Shown piece after piece: positions 2,158 through 31,530 of a stretch of DNA of 34,693 nt. The position numbers and the translations under genes were made by a program. Origin of the DNA: Acidobacteriaceae bacterium. GTDB lineage: Bacteria > Acidobacteriota > Terriglobia > Terriglobales > Acidobacteriaceae. How positions within the stretch are numbered: position 1 is the stretch's first letter; each line of letters starts with the position of its first letter. The DNA lies in contig PLBE01000171.1 of assembly GCA_003134435.1 (NCBI GenBank), forward strand, positions 1 through 34,693. The letters run 5' to 3'. The notes under the pieces were generated by a model. The model saw nothing but the letters and a program-made list of their open reading frames with translations, did not search any database and was not told the origin of the DNA.

Positions 2158-3468
2158 ATGAACATGAAAACGGTAACGCTGTTTCTGTTTTTGTCGCTGG
2201 CTGTTTCCATCGGGGCGCAGACCCCAACAATTTCCGAGGAAGTGGAAGCTGTCTACCCGGCGGCCCACGACTTGTATATTGATCTTCATCGGACTCCTGA
2301 ACTGTCGTCGCACGAGATCCAGACCGCTTCCAAACTTGCCGCTCGTTTGCGCAGCCTGGGCTATACCGTCACGGAAGGAGTCGGCGGCACCGGCGTTGTC
2401 GCCATTCTCGAAAATGGGGTGGGGCCCACGGTCATGCTGCGTACCGAACTCGACGCGCTACCCGTCGAAGAAAAGACTGGGCTGCCGTATGCGAGCAAAG
2501 TCCATGCCCAGGACGACTCCGGACGCGAGGTGCCAGTCATGCATGCCTGCGGCCATGATCTGCACATGGCGGCGCTGGCAGGGACAGCCGCCATCATGGC
2601 GCATAGCCAGCAGAGTTGGCACGGCACTCTGATGCTGATTGGCCAGCCAGCCGAGGAAACGATCTCCGGGGCCAGGAGGATGATCGACGATGGCCTGTTC
2701 ACGCGCTTTCCGAAGCCAAGCGTGGGCATTGCTCTTCACGTCGGCAACGACCTTCCCGCTGGAGAAGTTGGGATCACTCCAGGCATCTACAATACGAATG
2801 CCGATTCCTTGCGGATCACAATTTACGGCAAAGGCGGACATGGTTCCGCGCCGCAGTCGGCCATCGACCCCATTGTGATTGCCGCCCGAACGATTCTCGC
2901 TCTGCAAACTATCGTTTCGCGCGAGGTGAAGCCGGGAGAGATGGCCGTCGTAACTGTCGGCTACGTGCGGGCCGGCACGAAAAACAACATCATTCCTGAC
3001 CATGCGGAACTGGGCTTGACCGTGCGGACCTACAAAGCGGATGTGCGGAAGCAGGTTCTAGCGGCGATCACCCGCATCGCCAAAGCCGAAGCGCTGGCCG
3101 GGGGCGCGCCGCAGGAGCCTCTGATCGAGCACTACGAGTTCACCGACTCGGTTTATAACGACCCGGCACTGGCGCAACGGCTTAGAGCCCCACTCGAAGC
3201 AGCATTGGGCAAAGGCAACGTGATTGCCACCGAGTCGATCACGCCTTCCGAGGACTACGCCTTCTTCATTGAACAGGGCGTTCCCTCGCTCTACATGAGC
3301 CTGGGAGGCGCAGACCCCCGGAAGTATGCCGAAAGCAAGAATGCGGGTACTCAGCTTCCGTCCAATCACTCCCCTTATTTCGCCCCGGACGCGGATCCGG
3401 CACTGCGCACGGGCATGGAGGCGGAAGTCGCGGTTTTGCGCAACCTGCTGAACGGCGCTTCGCAATAA
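2158..3468 (+). CDS. Exported M20-family amidohydrolase (hippurate/N-acyl-amino-acid hydrolase type)
   Basis: A zinc metallopeptidase of the M20D amidohydrolase group, which removes acyl groups from N-acyl amino acids or aryl-amino-acid conjugates. Family blocks occur in order: DLHRTPELSSHE, MLRTELDALPVEE, the metal-binding MHACGHDLHMAALAG, GQPAEET with the catalytic Glu pair, ALHVGNDLPAGEV, the dimerisation-domain GKGGHGSAPQ, and SEDYAFFIEQGVP near the end. The N-terminus is hydrophobic (MKTVTLFLFLSLAVSIGAQ) and reads as a signal peptide, so this member is exported. ATG 2158 is preferred over the open GTG at 2131 because it places the signal peptide at the start; ATG 2164 is equally possible. 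The protein is 436 residues, slightly longer than cytosolic relatives. Substrate is unknown. Confidence 0.93.
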   Translation: MNMKTVTLFLFLSLAVSIGAQTPTISEEVEAVYPAAHDLYIDLHRTPELSSHEIQTASKLAARLRSLGYTVTEGVGGTGVVAILENGVGPTVMLRTELDALPVEEKTGLPYASKVHAQDDSGREVPVMHACGHDLHMAALAGTAAIMAHSQQSWHGTLMLIGQPAEETISGARRMIDDGLFTRFPKPSVGIALHVGNDLPAGEVGITPGIYNTNADSLRITIYGKGGHGSAPQSAIDPIVIAARTILALQTIVSREVKPGEMAVVTVGYVRAGTKNNIIPDHAELGLTVRTYKADVRKQVLAAITRIAKAEALAGGAPQEPLIEHYEFTDSVYNDPALAQRLRAPLEAALGKGNVIATESITPSEDYAFFIEQGVPSLYMSLGGADPRKYAESKNAGTQLPSNHSPYFAPDADPALRTGMEAEVAVLRNLLNGASQ

Positions 3469-5553: not shown

Positions 5554-7074
5554 ATGGAGCGCGTGCTCGTGGAGTGCGACCGGGCGGCTCTCGGTTTTGA
5601 CGCCGAAGCGGTTCATGATCTTCGGGTGGCGCTGCGGCGCTGCCGATCTCTCGCCGATGGCATGATGGCCATCGATCCCGACTCTTCGTGGAAGGATATG
5701 AAGAAATCGGGGAAGAGGCTTTTCCAGGCGCTGGGTGAACTGCGCGATATGCAGGTGATGCAGGAGTGGATCGAGAAGCTGAGCGGCGCCGGCGATGACA
5801 AAGATCCGGCCGCCATCAAGCTGCTGAATCACGTGCGAGCGCGCGAAGCCGAATGCAAGCAGCACGCCTTCAAAGATCTCGGTCAGTTTGACCGCAAGCA
5901 ATGGCGGCAGTGGACGAGAACTCTTCCGCGGCGCGCTGCGCAGGTACGCCCGGGGAGCGCGGTATATCTACATCTGGCGCTCGAAAAGTGGACCGCCGCC
6001 TACGATTTGCACAAACATGCTCTGCGGACGCGGTCGCAGGCCAGTTGGCACGAGTTGCGCATTGGCATCAAACGCTTTCGCTACACGGTGGAAAATTTTC
6101 TGCCGCGCCAGCATGCGCTATGGGGCGATGATCTGAAGGAACTTCAGGATGTGCTGGGCGAGGTGCATGATCTGGATGTGCTGTGGACCATGGCCGTCGC
6201 CAGCGATGTGAGTGCGTTCCCCGATCTCGAAAGCCGAAACCGCTGGCGTGACAAGTTGAACGCCGAGCGCGTCAAGCGAATCGGGCGTTATCGCGAGAAG
6301 ATGGTGGGCCGCGAGTCGCTATGGCGCGTCTGGCGGGCGGTCTTGCCATCGGGTCCGCAGCTGCAGGCGGCGGCGATGAGCCGGCTTCGAGTGTGGGCGG
6401 GATACGTCGATCCAGATTTCGCGCATTCCCAACGCGTGGCCCAGTTGGCCCTGCTCTTGTTCGATGGGCTGCGGGACGCGAACCTGCTCACGACCGGCGC
6501 TGCGGACCAGGCTGATGAAGTGCCCAATGGAGGTGGGTCAAATCGGAAGCACGACTCGCGAGCTGTGCTGCAGGCGGCGGCCCTCATGCATGACGTGGGC
6601 AAAGCCAAGGGGCAGGAAGATCACCAAAAGCGATCCTATCGCATGATCCAGGGGCTGGCGCGGCCTTTGGGCTGGAGTGCGCGCGACCTTGAACTGGCGG
6701 CGGTGGTTGCGCGTTATCACCGTGGAGCATTGCCGCACCCGCGACGAAAGACCTTGCAGATTCTGGAACTCCCAGATCGGTCGATCGCCGTGGCTCTGGC
6801 CGCCGTTTTGCGGTTGGCCAATGCGCTGGATATGAGTCATGGACGCCATGGGCTCAATGGGAAAGCGAACCACGACGCGCCGCAGCTCGAGGTGAGTTTG
6901 CAGGAGCATTCCGTAGTGGTGCGTGTGGCAGGATACTCGGTATTCGATCGATCGGCGGAAGACATCGCCGCGGCGCGACATTTACTGGAAACCGTGCTGC
7001 GCCAGCCGGTGCTGGTGCGCACTTTAAGGGCTGCGGTTGGTGGCGGAAGATCCACGGGACGAACTGGCACCTAA
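5554..7074 (+). CDS. CHAD domain fused to a Ppx/GppA-type HD domain
   Basis: At least 506 residues in two modules. The first half is a CHAD domain, a helical histidine-rich fold known to bind polyphosphate: its two hallmark helices read AVHDLRVALRRCRS and WHELRIGIKRFRYTVE, with conserved His and Arg facing the tunnel. The second half (about 285-430) is an HD domain like the C-terminus of exopolyphosphatase/GppA: AHSQRVAQLALLLFDGL, then LMHDVGKAKG with the His-Asp pair near 346, HQKRSYRMIQG, VVARYHRG and VLRLANALDMSHG. The ASKHA catalytic domain of Ppx is absent. ATG 5554 is the first standard start, but the frame is open from 5443 and a CTG at 5467 sits 7 nt after GGGGAG, so about 29 more residues may be translated. 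Role in polyphosphate or (p)ppGpp biology is inferred. Confidence 0.88.
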   Translation: MERVLVECDRAALGFDAEAVHDLRVALRRCRSLADGMMAIDPDSSWKDMKKSGKRLFQALGELRDMQVMQEWIEKLSGAGDDKDPAAIKLLNHVRAREAECKQHAFKDLGQFDRKQWRQWTRTLPRRAAQVRPGSAVYLHLALEKWTAAYDLHKHALRTRSQASWHELRIGIKRFRYTVENFLPRQHALWGDDLKELQDVLGEVHDLDVLWTMAVASDVSAFPDLESRNRWRDKLNAERVKRIGRYREKMVGRESLWRVWRAVLPSGPQLQAAAMSRLRVWAGYVDPDFAHSQRVAQLALLLFDGLRDANLLTTGAADQADEVPNGGGSNRKHDSRAVLQAAALMHDVGKAKGQEDHQKRSYRMIQGLARPLGWSARDLELAAVVARYHRGALPHPRRKTLQILELPDRSIAVALAAVLRLANALDMSHGRHGLNGKANHDAPQLEVSLQEHSVVVRVAGYSVFDRSAEDIAAARHLLETVLRQPVLVRTLRAAVGGGRSTGRTGT

Positions 7075-11870: not shown

Positions 11871-13223
11871 ATGCTTCCGCAACCTATGTTGAGGTCCGAG
11901 GTTCATCCTGACGATTCGCACCCCGACCCAACTCGTACCCTCGAGCAGCACATCCTCGCCGGTTTTCCTCCCGACCTTGCGCTTGATCTGGTGCTGAACG
12001 AAATCGTGGTCCATGCCGCTGAAGCTACCCGCGCTGCTGCCGCTGCCCTGGCCCTCGCCCGCGGCGATGAGATGATCTACCGCGCCGCCACCGGCCCCCT
12101 CGCTCCTGATATTGGCGTGCCTGTCAGCACCCGAGATGGTCTTGCTGGCGCTTGTCTTCGGACCCGTCAGACACAGCTTTCCGTGGATACAGATTTGGAT
12201 CCCCGCCTCGGCACTGCCCTCCCGGGTATTCGATCCATCCTCATCGTGCCCCTGTTCGACACGAATGACAACCAAGCGCCGATCGGTGGAATTCTCGAAG
12301 TGTTTTCGCAGTTACCAGCCGCTTTTTCCGCCATCGACCAGAAGATGCTCGAACGTTTCGCAGAAGAGTGTGCCCGGGTTCGTCACGCTGCCATCGCGTT
12401 GGGACAACGCAAGCCTGCCGCTGCAGTTCTGGCGCCCGACCTGGTCATACCGTCTGGATTCGTGCCGTCCGAGTTCGCTGTGCCGGCGCCCCCGCCAGCG
12501 AGCCGCCGCCCTTACGAAGCGTGGAGCCTGGTTCTTGGATCTCTGGCCATTCTCGCCATCGTCTTTGTCAGCATGCTGATTGGTTCGCGCGTCGGATGGC
12601 TCCATCCCGCCGCGTCGCATGCGCAGGGCTCCCAGCCTGTTCCACCCAATCCGGTTCTCGCCGAACCGGTGAATGTCGCCCCCATACAACCCATCACCAC
12701 AAAGTCCGTGGATCGACGATCAACTCCAGCCGCCCCGGAGAAAGCCACTGGCCCAACCCCGGTTACTGCGGGCGAACTGGTGGTCTACGACAAGGGCAAA
12801 GTTATCTTCCGGATGATGCCAGGCTCCACCAAGCCCGATCACGGAAAGAGTCGTCAAGTGCCGCCCGATCCGATCAAGCCTCCCGGCGCCGCCGTCGTGG
12901 CCGCGTCATCCACCCAGAAAGTTGCTTCTTCGCAGAGCGTTTGGCTGGCTGCCGGACAAGCCGAAACCCGCCTCCTTAATCGTACCGAACCCAAGTATCC
13001 GTCCGCGGCCCAAGTCGCCCGTCGCGCCGGTGAAGTCATTCTCGAAGTCCAGGTCGCCGAGGACGGTTCCGTCTCCTCGATACACATTGTTAGCGGAGAC
13101 CCGCTCCTGGCCGCAGCCGCGACCGACGCGGTGCGCACTTGGCGCTATGAACCCTACGTTCTCAATGGTCGTCCATCCCCGTTTACTACCAACGTAACCC
13201 TCAGTTTCGTACTTCCTGATTGA
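11871..13223 (+). CDS. GAF domain - transmembrane helix - TonB C-terminal domain protein
   Basis: A 450-residue protein with an unusual order. A cytoplasmic GAF-type sensor domain covers about residues 35-175 (FPPDLALDLVLNEIV, ATRAAAAALALA, SILIVPLFD, IGGILEVFS, DQKMLERFAEEC). A single membrane helix follows at about 219-238 (SLVLGSLAILAIVFVSMLI). Then comes a Pro-rich periplasmic linker (about 245-360) and a TonB C-terminal domain in the last 88 residues (EPKYPSAAQVARRAGEVILEVQVAEDG, then AVRTWRYEPY). TonB normally carries energy from the inner membrane to outer-membrane receptors. The GAF part suggests the device is gated by a cytoplasmic ligand or redox cue, which is inference. The frame is open from TTG 11793; ATG 11871 is preferred. 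Convergent with the hybrid kinase gene. Confidence 0.87.
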   Translation: MLPQPMLRSEVHPDDSHPDPTRTLEQHILAGFPPDLALDLVLNEIVVHAAEATRAAAAALALARGDEMIYRAATGPLAPDIGVPVSTRDGLAGACLRTRQTQLSVDTDLDPRLGTALPGIRSILIVPLFDTNDNQAPIGGILEVFSQLPAAFSAIDQKMLERFAEECARVRHAAIALGQRKPAAAVLAPDLVIPSGFVPSEFAVPAPPPASRRPYEAWSLVLGSLAILAIVFVSMLIGSRVGWLHPAASHAQGSQPVPPNPVLAEPVNVAPIQPITTKSVDRRSTPAAPEKATGPTPVTAGELVVYDKGKVIFRMMPGSTKPDHGKSRQVPPDPIKPPGAAVVAASSTQKVASSQSVWLAAGQAETRLLNRTEPKYPSAAQVARRAGEVILEVQVAEDGSVSSIHIVSGDPLLAAAATDAVRTWRYEPYVLNGRPSPFTTNVTLSFVLPD

Positions 13224-27946: not shown

Positions 27947-28022
27947 CAGTTCCCAGTTCTCTTCTTAGTTCTGAGTTTAGAGGCCAGGGACGACTTTGCT
28001 GAGAACTGAGAACCGGGAACTG
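27947..28022. repeat. Imperfect inverted repeat CAGTTCCCAGTTCTC / GAGAACTGAGAACCGGGAACTG
   Basis: Left arm 27947-27975 (CAGTTCCCAGTTCTC, then TTCTTAGTTCTGAG) and right arm 27999-28022 (CTGAGAACTGAGAACCGGGAACTG), loop about 23 nt. Repeats of GTTCTCA/TGAGAAC units are typical of dispersed intergenic elements. It ends 10 bp before the next ATG, so a hairpin there could influence translation. Confidence 0.45.
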
Positions 28023-28031
28023 ACAACTCCC

Positions 28032-28673
28032 ATGACCCCTCTTCTCCTCGGGCATCGCGGAGCGCGGGCTTCCCGCCACATTCCTGAAAATAGTTTGGCT
28101 TCGTTCGAGCTTTGTTTGCGGCACGGCTGCGACGGATTTGAATTCGATGTGCGGCTTTCCGCCGACGGTTCGGCTGTGATCTGCCACGATGCTTCCATCG
28201 GCGGGATGAAAATCGAGAAGACGGATTCGAGAAGACTGCTCTTGCCCACGCTGGAAGATGTTCTGCGGCAATTTTCGCAGCGGGCGTTCCTTGATATTGA
28301 GTTGAAGGTGTCCGGCTTGGAGCGTCATGCGCTGGCGGCGTTGCATCATCATCCGCCCCAAGAGGGATTCGTGGTTTCGTCGTTTCTCCCGGAAGTGCTA
28401 GCGGCCGTCCATGCCTTCGACGCGACGATTCCTCTGGGTTTCCTTTGTGAGACACAGGGGCAGCTTCGAGAGTGGCGGGAAAGCCCGGCCCAATCGGTGA
28501 TTTCGCAAGCGGATCTGACGACAAGGGAATTGGTCGAGCAGGTTCATGCGGCTGGGAAGAGAATCATGGTTTGGACGGTGAATTGTGCCGAGCGGATGCG
28601 TGAGTTCAAGGAGTGGGGCGCCGACGCGATCATTTCGGATGAAACGGAGTTGTTAGTCCGATCGCTGCGATAA
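28032..28673 (+). CDS. Glycerophosphodiester phosphodiesterase
   Basis: 213 residues, shorter than the usual 240-250. The enzyme hydrolyses deacylated phospholipids to glycerol-3-phosphate and an alcohol. Signatures of the GDPD barrel: LLLGHRGARASRHIPENSLASF with the catalytic His and Glu, FEFDVRLSADGSAVICHD with the metal-binding E-x-D and the second His, and later FLDIELK and VMVWTVN. The end ADAIISDETELL is the normal finish. No signal peptide, so it acts in the cytosol. ATG 28032 is placed right before the fold; the open frame to 27996 crosses the inverted repeat. Confidence 0.93.
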   Translation: MTPLLLGHRGARASRHIPENSLASFELCLRHGCDGFEFDVRLSADGSAVICHDASIGGMKIEKTDSRRLLLPTLEDVLRQFSQRAFLDIELKVSGLERHALAALHHHPPQEGFVVSSFLPEVLAAVHAFDATIPLGFLCETQGQLREWRESPAQSVISQADLTTRELVEQVHAAGKRIMVWTVNCAERMREFKEWGADAIISDETELLVRSLR

Positions 28674-28730
28674 CGGCGAGACTGACGACTGCCATTGCTC
28701 CCGGTATTCGCCTCAGTTACATTGAACAGG

Positions 28731-29627
28731 ATGCCCACTACAGGCGAACGATTCGAACGAGCGGTGCAGATCATGGCGCGCTTGCGGGCTCCGGACGGAT
28801 GCCCGTGGGATCGCGAACAGACCTTTGACACCATCAAACCCTACACGCTGGAAGAGACTTACGAAGTGCTGGAAGCGATCGACAATCGTGACTGGCCGGA
28901 ACTGACGGGTGAATTGGGCGATCTGCTGTTGCAGGTGCTGTTCTATTCCCAGATGGCTCGCGAGCAAGGCCACTTCTCGGTGGATGACGTGCTCGACCGG
29001 TTGGCTGACAAATTAGTGGACCGGCATCCGCATGTATTTGGTGACGTAGAGGCCGACACTCCCGCCGAAGTGCTGCGCAACTGGGAAGCGCTGAAGGCGC
29101 TGGAGAAAGAAAAGAAGAAGCGGCTGGCTTCCGACGAAATGAACGTGGAGCAACCCGAGCCCCCATCCGTGCTCGCGAGCGTGTCCTCGAAAATGCCGGC
29201 GTCAATGGAGGCCTACAAACTCAGTTCACGAGCGGCGCATGTGGGATTTGATTGGCCGGAGATCGAAGGACTCTTCGAAAAGCTGGCAGAAGAAACTGCC
29301 GAGTTACGCCATGAACTGAAAGCCGTATCCGTTCCCGGGCCATCGGGCAAGGGCATAGCCGGCTCGGGGAAGCCACACGTTTCCCCGGAACTGCGCGAAC
29401 GATTGGAAGATGAAGTGGGAGATCTGTTCTTCGTGCTGGTGAATATTGCGCGTTATCTGTCGCTCGATCCGGAATCGGCGTTGCGCAAAACAAATCGCAA
29501 GTTCAAGCGCCGCTTTCAATGGATGGAGAAATGTCTGCACGCCCGCGGACGAGGTCCGCTGCAGGCCTCGATGGATGAACTGGAAACGCTATGGCAAGAA
29601 GCCAAACGGCAGGAAAAACAGAAGTGA
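28731..29627 (+). CDS. mazG: Nucleoside triphosphate pyrophosphohydrolase MazG
   Basis: 298 residues with two MazG repeats. The first (FERAVQIMARLRAPDGCPWDREQTFDTIKPYTLEETYEVLEAID, ELTGELGDLLLQVLF) has the E-E-x-x-D metal sites and the typical CPWDREQT opening. The second (LFEKLAEETAELRHEL, DEVGDLFFVLVNIARYL) is intact too. MazG cleaves non-canonical and normal NTPs to NMP and pyrophosphate. The middle (about 120-165) carries a Glu/Lys-rich insert. A TTGctc-N17-TACATT pair ending 7 bp before the ATG may be a promoter. Stop overlaps the next gene by 4 bp. Confidence 0.95.
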   Translation: MPTTGERFERAVQIMARLRAPDGCPWDREQTFDTIKPYTLEETYEVLEAIDNRDWPELTGELGDLLLQVLFYSQMAREQGHFSVDDVLDRLADKLVDRHPHVFGDVEADTPAEVLRNWEALKALEKEKKKRLASDEMNVEQPEPPSVLASVSSKMPASMEAYKLSSRAAHVGFDWPEIEGLFEKLAEETAELRHELKAVSVPGPSGKGIAGSGKPHVSPELRERLEDEVGDLFFVLVNIARYLSLDPESALRKTNRKFKRRFQWMEKCLHARGRGPLQASMDELETLWQEAKRQEKQK

Positions 29628-30406
29628 GCGAATTGAACTCCGCAACCGCGACGGGCGCGGTGACCATCCGCAAATGCGATGCCCTGGAGGAAATGCAGGC
29701 CTGTTTCGCGCTGCAGAAAGAAGTGTGGAAGTTTTCCGATGCCGACCTGGTCCCGGTGCGCATGTTTGTGGTCGCGGCAAAGATAGGCGGCCAGGTGGTT
29801 GGGGCCTTCGCCGGTGCGCAAGTCGTTGGTTTTGCGCTTGCGATTCCGGCGATTCGGAACGGTCACAGCTACCTGCATTCGCAGATGCTGGCCGTCCACC
29901 CGCAATATCGCAACGGCGGCCTCGGCCGGCGGCTCAAGCTCTATCAGCGTGATGATGCCCTGGCGCGAGGTTTCGAACTGATGGAGTGGACGTTCGATCC
30001 GCTGGAGATCAAGAACGCGTATTTGAACATCGAGAAGCTGGGTGCCATTTCGCGCCGCTACAATGTCAATCAGTATGGGATCACATCGTCGCCTCTACAG
30101 GGCGGGCTGCCCACCGACCGGCTGATCGCGGAATGGTGGATGAAGTCGAAGCGGGTCGAAACCGTGTTGGCCGGCACTTCGCGGCCGCAGTTCGATTATC
30201 CCGCCCGCATCGATGTGCCGGCGGACATTTATGTCTGGAAGGCGGATGCAACCACGCGCGCGCAGGCATTGGCGGTGCAGCAGCGCAATCGCGGTCAGTT
30301 CGCCGGATTCTTTGCCCAAGGCCTGAGCGTGCTGGCCTACGAACGCGATCGGCGCGGAAATGGGCGATTCCTGCTGGGAGAGTGGGACGAAGGCTGGCGG
30401 TACTAG
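29624..30406 (+). CDS. GNAT-like acyltransferase (COG3375 type)
   Basis: 260 residues. The acetyltransferase fold is visible: AVTIRKCDALEEMQACFALQKEVW at the N-terminus, a middle strand GFALAIPAI, LHSQMLAVHPQYRNGGLGRRLKLYQ with the R/Q-x-x-G-x-G/A CoA loop, and the later MEWTFDPLEIKNAYLNIEKLGAI. This last block is typical of the COG3375 group. GTG 29624 gives GTGA overlap with the mazG stop and has AGGAA 8 nt upstream; ATG 29591 also works. The next gene, 8 bp on, is a MenC/racemase-type enzyme. In Geobacillus a similar pair acts as succinyl-CoA:D-amino acid N-succinyltransferase and N-succinylamino acid racemase, so that role is proposed here. Confidence 0.85.
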   Translation: MSELNSATATGAVTIRKCDALEEMQACFALQKEVWKFSDADLVPVRMFVVAAKIGGQVVGAFAGAQVVGFALAIPAIRNGHSYLHSQMLAVHPQYRNGGLGRRLKLYQRDDALARGFELMEWTFDPLEIKNAYLNIEKLGAISRRYNVNQYGITSSPLQGGLPTDRLIAEWWMKSKRVETVLAGTSRPQFDYPARIDVPADIYVWKADATTRAQALAVQQRNRGQFAGFFAQGLSVLAYERDRRGNGRFLLGEWDEGWRY

Positions 30407-30414
30407 AAAGAATT

Positions 30415-31530
30415 ATGAAAATCGAATCGGTTACTCTGCGTGAACTCCACATGCCCCTCGTGCATTTCTTTGAAACCAGCTTTGGCCGGAGCTACAGTCG
30501 CCGCATCCTGCTGGCGAGCGTGGAGGCCGATGGAGTGCGCGGGTGGGGCGAATGCGTCGCCGGGGAAGATCCGTATTACAGCCCGGAATGGACGGAGACG
30601 GCCTGGCCCACGATTAAGAATTATCTGGCGCCCCTGCTGTTGCAAAGCCAGTTGGATGCGGGCCGGGATTGCGCCGCGCGGTTTGCCCGGGTTCGCGGCC
30701 ACCGCATGTCCAAGGCTGCCCTCGAAAATGCGGTTTGGGATGCGGAAGCGCGGCAGAAACAACTGCCACTCTGGAAACTGTTGGGAGGAACCAGGCGCGA
30801 GATCGCCTGCGGCGTTTCCATCGGCATTCAGGACACTCCGGAACAGCTTCTGGACAAGATCGAAATTGAGTTGGCGGCAGGATACCGGCGGATCAAGATC
30901 AAGGTGAAACCGGGATGGGATTTGAACGTGCTCGAAAAAATTCGCGCGCGGTGGGCGGATATCGTTCTCAGCGTGGATGCAAATTCGGCATACACGCTGG
31001 ACGAGGGCGAGCACTTGCGCAGATTCGATGCCTTCCATTTGCTGATGGTTGAACAGCCTTTGTGGAATGATGAGATCTATCTCCATGCGCGCCTGCAGAA
31101 ATCCATCGAGACGTCGATCTGTCTGGACGAATCGATTCTGAACGCGCGCGACGCCAATTTTGCCCTCGAGATCGGCGCCTGCCGCATCATCAATATCAAA
31201 GTCGGTCGCGTCGGCGGTTTCAGTGAGGCGAAAAAAATACACGATGTCACGGTGCGACACAACGTTCCGGTGTGGTGCGGCGGCATGCTGGAATCGGGCG
31301 TGGGACGCGCTCATAACATTGCTTTGTCGACCCTGGAAAATTTCCGCTTGCCGGGAGATGTGTCGGCGTCGAAGCGTTATTGGAAGGAAGATATTATCGA
31401 GCCCGAAGTGCAAGTTCGCGCCGACGGAATGATTGCCATCAGCGACGCACCGGGAACGGGCTATCAGGTCCGTGAAGATCTGGTACGCAGGTTTACAGTG
31501 CGAGAAGAGACGTTCCGTGTGGGGATGTAA
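30415..31530 (+). CDS. menC: o-Succinylbenzoate synthase / N-succinylamino acid racemase family enzyme
   Basis: 371 residues of the enolase superfamily. Key residues: K-x-K at 163 and 165 (IKVKPGW), metal ligands Asp 188 (SVDANSAY), Glu 213 (VEQPL) and Asp 238 (CLDES), and the second catalytic Lys at 262 (INIKVGRVGG). The numbering is almost the same as in the Amycolatopsis OSBS/NSAR enzyme (from memory). Members either make o-succinylbenzoate for menaquinone or racemise N-succinylamino acids; some do both. The adjacent GNAT gene and the absence of other men genes favour the racemase role; this is inference. ATG 30415 starts right after the GNAT gene. Confidence 0.9.
   Translation: MKIESVTLRELHMPLVHFFETSFGRSYSRRILLASVEADGVRGWGECVAGEDPYYSPEWTETAWPTIKNYLAPLLLQSQLDAGRDCAARFARVRGHRMSKAALENAVWDAEARQKQLPLWKLLGGTRREIACGVSIGIQDTPEQLLDKIEIELAAGYRRIKIKVKPGWDLNVLEKIRARWADIVLSVDANSAYTLDEGEHLRRFDAFHLLMVEQPLWNDEIYLHARLQKSIETSICLDESILNARDANFALEIGACRIINIKVGRVGGFSEAKKIHDVTVRHNVPVWCGGMLESGVGRAHNIALSTLENFRLPGDVSASKRYWKEDIIEPEVQVRADGMIAISDAPGTGYQVREDLVRRFTVREETFRVGM

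Follow-up and report, generated by a model that had tools for sequence, protein, structure and literature searches.

In the genome of an Acidobacteriaceae bacterium (assembly GCA_003134435.1), a gene for a GNAT-fold acyltransferase is followed closely by one for an enolase-superfamily enzyme of the N-succinylamino acid racemase/o-succinylbenzoate synthase (NSAR/OSBS) family. Is the second gene menC, encoding the o-succinylbenzoate synthase of menaquinone biosynthesis, or do the two belong to an amino acid pathway? Both lie in the stretch of DNA analyzed here (the window: 34,693 nucleotides, forward strand of contig PLBE01000171.1), which is contig C44 of the host genome (5.75 Mb, 261 contigs, estimated 100% complete). 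We consider it probable that the pair represents the first two enzymes of a route converting D- to L-amino acids, with an M20-family hydrolase encoded elsewhere in the genome as the third. A sequence-only reading of the window had proposed such a route, and the proposal gains support from the presence of the third enzyme in the host genome, from its co-distribution with the other two, and from its clustering with them in five relatives.

In the proposed route, the GNAT would acylate the amino group of a D-amino acid, most likely with succinyl from succinyl-CoA. The NSAR/OSBS enzyme would then racemize this N-acylated product, shuttling a proton between a pair of lysines via a metal-bound intermediate, and a carboxypeptidase-G2-like M20 enzyme (contig C243) would strip the acyl group from the L-form, pulling the reaction one way. 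The assignment is based on family chemistry (the lysine pair) and on a precedent: Geobacillus kaustophilus reportedly converts D- to L-amino acids with a GNAT succinyltransferase, an NSAR/OSBS, and an N-succinyl-L-amino acid hydrolase. The same three enzyme types are present here, and in five Acidobacteriota genomes they also form a single cluster. We take the Geobacillus hydrolase gene to lie beside the other two, whereas that of the window genome is unlinked and carboxypeptidase-G2-like. The type of route is already known from G. kaustophilus; what appears new is how nearly universal it is in the host order, how widely it occurs across the phylum, the likeness of its hydrolase to carboxypeptidase G2, and its anticorrelation with menD. 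Joint use of the NSAR and L-succinylase from G. kaustophilus to make L-amino acids is described in a passage of PMC7431475. For the window genome, we infer the acyl group, the substrates, the direction from D to L, and the part played by the unlinked M20 enzyme in the third step.

The two enzymes of the pair

The NSAR/OSBS-family protein passed the curated cutoff of TIGR01928 (menC_lowGC_arch; 300.7 versus 200.65 bits). Its match to 1sja, the structure of the Amycolatopsis NSAR/OSBS, scored 341.8 bits and covered residues 1 to 359 of 371. The N-acylamino acid racemases 1r0m and 2zc8, which we take to come from Deinococcus and Thermus, belong to the same family (307.8 and 299.3 bits, respectively). 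In the alignment to 1sja, query residues K161/K163, D188, E213, D238, K262, and R265 lie opposite K161/K163, D189, E214, D239, K263, and R266. The catalytic lysine pair (K163 and K262) and the Asp-Glu-Asp metal ligands (D188, E213, and D238) are present, and each was conserved in 116/118 locus rows, a set that includes the window itself and some genes twice; the two other rows stop short of the site. R265 was likewise kept in 116/118 rows, with two not reaching it, and in 4/4 rows from genomes with menD. All residues listed in the sequence-only reading (K163, K165, D188, E213, D238, and K262) were found, but its K163-x-K165 motif sits two residues too late. Because the alignment pairs K161/K163 with the same positions of 1sja, we assign the KxK motif to K161-x-K163; K165 is aligned with a glutamate of 1sja and is replaced by another residue in six loci of the phylum.

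The window enzyme and the Amycolatopsis enzyme (1sja and 4a6g) have in common their family, the lysines, the metal ligands, and the equivalent of R266, a residue to which we presume a functional role. They differ in that V263 of the query is opposite a proline and Y322/W323 are opposite Phe/Tyr. Dipeptide epimerases are found among the weaker enolase matches, and GNATs are functionally diverse; a reading as a dipeptide or other epimerase, with the GNAT acting on an unrelated amine, would draw on both points. We nevertheless find it hardly credible, as the NSAR/OSBS match is far stronger than that to the L-Ala-D/L-Glu epimerase 1jpm (90.2 bits) and the presumably functional R265 is conserved as described. 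For the NSAR/OSBS family, a passage of PMC8142540 describes a pair of lysines acting as bases, and one in PMC4215206 reports OSBS as the Amycolatopsis enzyme's own biological role.

The partner protein contains the Pfam GNAT domains PF13508/PF00583, and its predicted structure (mean pLDDT, 91.1) has the GNAT fold. A Foldseek search with this model gave a probability of 1.00 for 50 listed matches, with a TMq of ∼0.5 and ∼160 to 200 of the 260 residues aligned; the GNATs matched, phosphinothricin acetyltransferases included, thus cover about two-thirds of its length. The COG3375 label attached to the protein in the sequence-only reading is putative. A second GNAT of the host genome (G000:C64:19955-20479, L140) is 38% identical to that of the window. 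It was rejected as a member of the route, since neither an NSAR nor an M20 was recognized beside it.

Menaquinone routes in the host and its relatives

In the host genome, the best matches to menD and menB fell below their cutoffs (64.7 versus 244.2 bits and 143.8 versus 342.7 bits, respectively), and MqnC of the futalosine route passed its own (469 versus 428.1 bits). Given these results, the "menC" of the host is probably not a menaquinone gene. Because MqnC is present, no OSBS duty is expected of the enzyme, a point on which we set the host apart from Geobacillus. The earlier remark that the window shows no further menaquinone genes extends to the whole genome for menD and menB (menA, menE, and menF were not searched). 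The case that would have contradicted the earlier proposal, a sole menC in a genome making menaquinone by that route, does not occur here. Among 120 genomes drawn from the host order, Terriglobales, none had menD over the cutoff, three having weak matches of 76 to 81 bits, and MqnC was over its cutoff in 19 of 31 order genomes drawn. Two control genomes, Thermus composti and Deinobacterium chartae, had an MqnC match (not necessarily over the cutoff) and no menD match at an E value of ≤1e-30.

We regard it as very unlikely that the window enzyme is MenC. TIGR01928, the model that it passes, does carry the name o-succinylbenzoate synthase, and a relative co-occurs with menD over the cutoff in 18 genomes of the phylum. 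Against this stand the menD, menB, and MqnC results for the host and the lack of menD over the cutoff throughout the order draw; moreover, a passage of PMC13386864 describes the two menaquinone routes as mostly excluding each other. In a published table covering five Acidobacteria proteomes (PMC3914697), MenC is entered for four and MqnA/MqnC/MqnD for five, with MenF and MenB blank; the passages of that paper dealing with this table hold no comment on MenC without the rest of the pathway. The racemase assignment, if true, would explain why an apparent menC is kept in these four proteomes. It also suggests that, across much of this major phylum, such genes are misnamed when annotated automatically as o-succinylbenzoate synthase.

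The hydrolase and the distribution of the three genes

Within the order, a GNAT match was obtained in 118/120 genomes and a full-length NSAR (463 to 847 bits) also in 118; G040 and G027 (54% complete) had only weak NSAR relatives. Both genes were present in 117 genomes; in 114 of these the GNAT gene lay directly upstream of the NSAR gene on the same strand, at a median distance of 60 bp, and the two were on separate contigs in G094, G103, and G118. Among cultured relatives, Granulicella mallensis has the GNAT as well as the NSAR gene at locus L085. An M20 match (E ≤ 1e-30) was found in 117/120 genomes, using a profile built from five NSAR-linked M20s (alignment A2); the misses were G040 and two genomes that are 73 and 75% complete. 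G040, which is 100% complete, had no good match to GNAT, NSAR, or M20 (for M20, 16 of 41 first-look candidates were scored). As separate observations, contig C1 of G064 carries two GNAT-NSAR pairs (2609083-2610968 and 4534167-4536009), and a locus titled Verrucomicrobia (L100, CAJCIP010000058.1) holds the pair at 56% and 61% identity. The latter falls among Granulicella and Bryocella in the tree and is perhaps a mislabeled bin.

The link between the pair and an M20 enzyme comes from other families of the phylum, where neighbor analysis found an M20 peptidase beside NSAR. Five other genomes of the phylum contain three-gene clusters, arranged NSAR-M20-GNAT in G278, G170, and G293 (M20 and GNAT overlapping by 4 bp in all three, NSAR and M20 by 4 bp in G278 and G170) and M20-GNAT-NSAR in G134 and G213. 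The M20s of the last two are more divergent, scoring 220.9 and 268.6 bits against the M20 profile (with Pfam M20 found), and were not retrieved by tblastn at 1e-30 using one M20 of the profile set. Of the four cluster GNATs scanned, three reached no Pfam GNAT model at an E value of 1e-4; these were recognized by tblastn to the window GNAT. In addition, M20 follows NSAR in G142, G198, G297, and G188 (all family f22) and faces it in G233.

The host genome has one strong match to the M20 profile, at G000:C243:3402-4517 (459.1 bits), on a contig other than that of the pair. This unlinked M20 is the likely candidate for the third-step hydrolase. The sequence-only reading had noted an M20 N-acyl hydrolase gene at position 2158 of the window, with the reservation that it is exported and distant. 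That protein does have a signal-like start, as judged by eye, and is of another subtype (TIGR01891 amidohydrolase, 21% identical to the first NSAR-linked M20); it was set aside in favor of the C243 enzyme. The closest solved structure to the G198 M20, and so to an NSAR-linked M20, is carboxypeptidase G2 (1cg2, 117.3 bits). Carboxypeptidase G2 removes glutamate from folates, whereas the Acidobacteriota M20 is predicted to hydrolyze N-acyl-L-amino acids.

Across the phylum, one draw of 297 genomes was scored with thresholds of E ≤ 1e-50 for NSAR, ≤1e-20 for GNAT, and ≤1e-60 for M20 and with the cutoff for menD. NSAR was found in 157 genomes, GNAT in 148, M20 in 144, and menD in 26, with GNAT, NSAR, and M20 together in 119. 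NSAR and M20 co-occurred in 129 genomes and were both missing from 125; 28 had NSAR only and 15 had M20 only. M20 accompanied NSAR in 128 of 139 genomes without menD over the cutoff (counting G140, with a menD match below it) versus 1 of 18 with menD (Fisher P = 1.5e-14). For GNAT, the separation was weaker (124/139 versus 13/18; P = 0.057). The sole menD-containing NSAR genome with M20, G374, may be contaminated, since its menD is on a 6.8-kb contig and MqnC is also over the cutoff. As relatives within families are not independent, a point that tempers these genome counts, we also counted by family. Of the 43 families with NSAR genomes lacking menD over the cutoff, 40 had one or more NSAR genomes with M20, and in 39 M20 was present in more than half of them. 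Of the six families judged on menD-containing NSAR genomes, only that of G374 had M20 (P = 3.7e-4 versus the 43).

Physical linkage varied outside the order. The GNAT and NSAR genes were within 1 kb of each other in 43 genomes (23 families) and not in 52, among the matches listed for 95 genomes; NSAR and M20 were within 1 kb in 10 and within 30 kb in 21, among those listed for 92. In one genome with menD (L142, G285:C1), an IS110-type transposase gene lies between GNAT and NSAR.

The same three enzymes could instead serve to make or interconvert N-acylated or D-amino acids for export, wall modification, or storage, with no recycling. The direction does not follow from gene content by itself, and family enzymes accept several N-acyl groups in published use (a passage of PMC7431475). 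That the set includes a hydrolase suggests instead that acylation is transient, and no biosynthetic cluster was recognized among the neighbors examined; we consider this purpose unlikely.

Several further observations weigh against a D- to L-amino acid route or limit its reach. M20 was missing from 11 NSAR genomes without a menD match and NSAR from the 15 genomes with M20 only, counts in which scoring covered the best 5 to 8 first-look candidates of each genome (as many as 16 for the order draw) and a missing match does not equal absence. In family f48, 12 genomes with menD have NSAR and GNAT and no M20 match; the presence of the pair is thus not proof of the route by itself. Within the order, the GNAT matches of G103 and G118 are partial (47% and 38% identical), lie on another contig, and are perhaps paralogues. 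By tblastn, NSAR was found in 44 of 49 named loci with a GNAT relative; the contig ends immediately after GNAT in L084 and L103, and L061, L062, and L080 have ∼10 kb downstream of GNAT without NSAR. The other 12 of the 31 order genomes gave weaker MqnC matches (E values of 6e-94 to 9e-112 or better); these results therefore do not establish the futalosine route in every one of the 31. The likeness to carboxypeptidase G2 could mean another substrate for the M20. In the host, the contamination estimate is 4.42%, and the frame of the C243 M20 (L168) has no ATG, GTG, or TTG before the homologous start, which may reflect use of a less common start codon or an error in the assembly; an ATG is present upstream in another frame.

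In a tree of 51 NSAR sequences (root arbitrary, some deep forks weak), the six menD-linked ones split between two positions: f48 is placed next to f10 and f45, and f26 and f66 next to the f18 and f53 genomes with three-gene clusters. This placement fits repeated switching between racemase and menaquinone duties. Sites 21, 25, 52, and 263 differ in tendency between relatives with and without menD; these candidate separating residues were set aside, as the comparison involves four menD-linked sequences of the single family f48. On a wider and more tentative view, which may well prove wrong, GNAT, NSAR, and a carboxypeptidase-G2-type desuccinylase would constitute a D-amino acid recycling route widespread in Acidobacteriota, core to the order and hidden under the name "menC," and the f48 racemase would have been retaken for menaquinone upon gain of menD and loss of the hydrolase. 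If true, f48 would provide a series from nature in which to study how a single active site switches between two activities.

The proposed D- to L-amino acid route points to a means for Acidobacteriota to use D-amino acids. Among the open-licence literature matches listed, no paper describes it in Acidobacteria. A 2025 survey of D-amino acid genes names Acidobacteriae among the classes possibly important for D-amino acid recycling in one passage, and the terms "N-succinyl" and "N-acyl" are lacking from its main text (PMC12363236).

Gene neighborhood and other features of the window

Features of the window discussed in the text are collected in Table 1. The ORF coordinates bear out the 8-bp spacing given for the pair in the sequence-only reading: 8 nucleotides separate the GNAT stop from the NSAR start, an ATG, on the same strand. 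If the GTG at 29624 is the true start of the GNAT gene, it overlaps the mazG stop by 4 bp; an in-frame ATG at 29591 is a possible alternative start.

Table 1. Coordinates and annotation of selected genes in the window
Feature	Position	Strand	Annotation
M20 amidohydrolase, TIGR01891 type, signal-like start by eye	2158-3468	+	TIGR01891, 271.3 bits
Glycerophosphodiester phosphodiesterase-family gene, upstream of mazG	27996-28673	+	Pfam PF03009
mazG-family NTP pyrophosphohydrolase ORF, start uncertain	28695-29627	+	PRK09562, 311.1 bits
GNAT-fold N-acyltransferase, 260 aa	29624-30406	+	Pfam PF13508/PF00583; predicted D-amino acid N-succinyltransferase
NSAR/OSBS-family enolase-superfamily enzyme, 371 aa	30415-31530	+	TIGR01928; predicted N-succinylamino acid racemase

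A mazG of the same gene cluster was found in 48 of the 49 named loci and a glycerophosphodiesterase gene of the same cluster in 18. Both were seen alongside the pair at named loci of the order and at none of the other phylum loci examined. We treat mazG as a conserved neighbor in the host order and claim no functional link to the pair for either gene. Outside the order, no common pathway emerged among the recurring or adjacent genes scanned, which included NAD-dependent DNA ligase, DNA methylase, a HEAT-repeat/cyclophilin protein, histidine kinases, glycosyltransferases, cytochrome assembly, glutamine synthetase, hydantoinase B, and others.

Two other proteins of the window combine domains. 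That at 5554-7074 (+; 506 aa) contains a CHAD domain and matches to Ppx/GppA domain III and HD, and it is perhaps polyphosphate related. At 11991-13223 (+), a GAF domain and a TonB C-terminal domain occur within one 410-aa protein.

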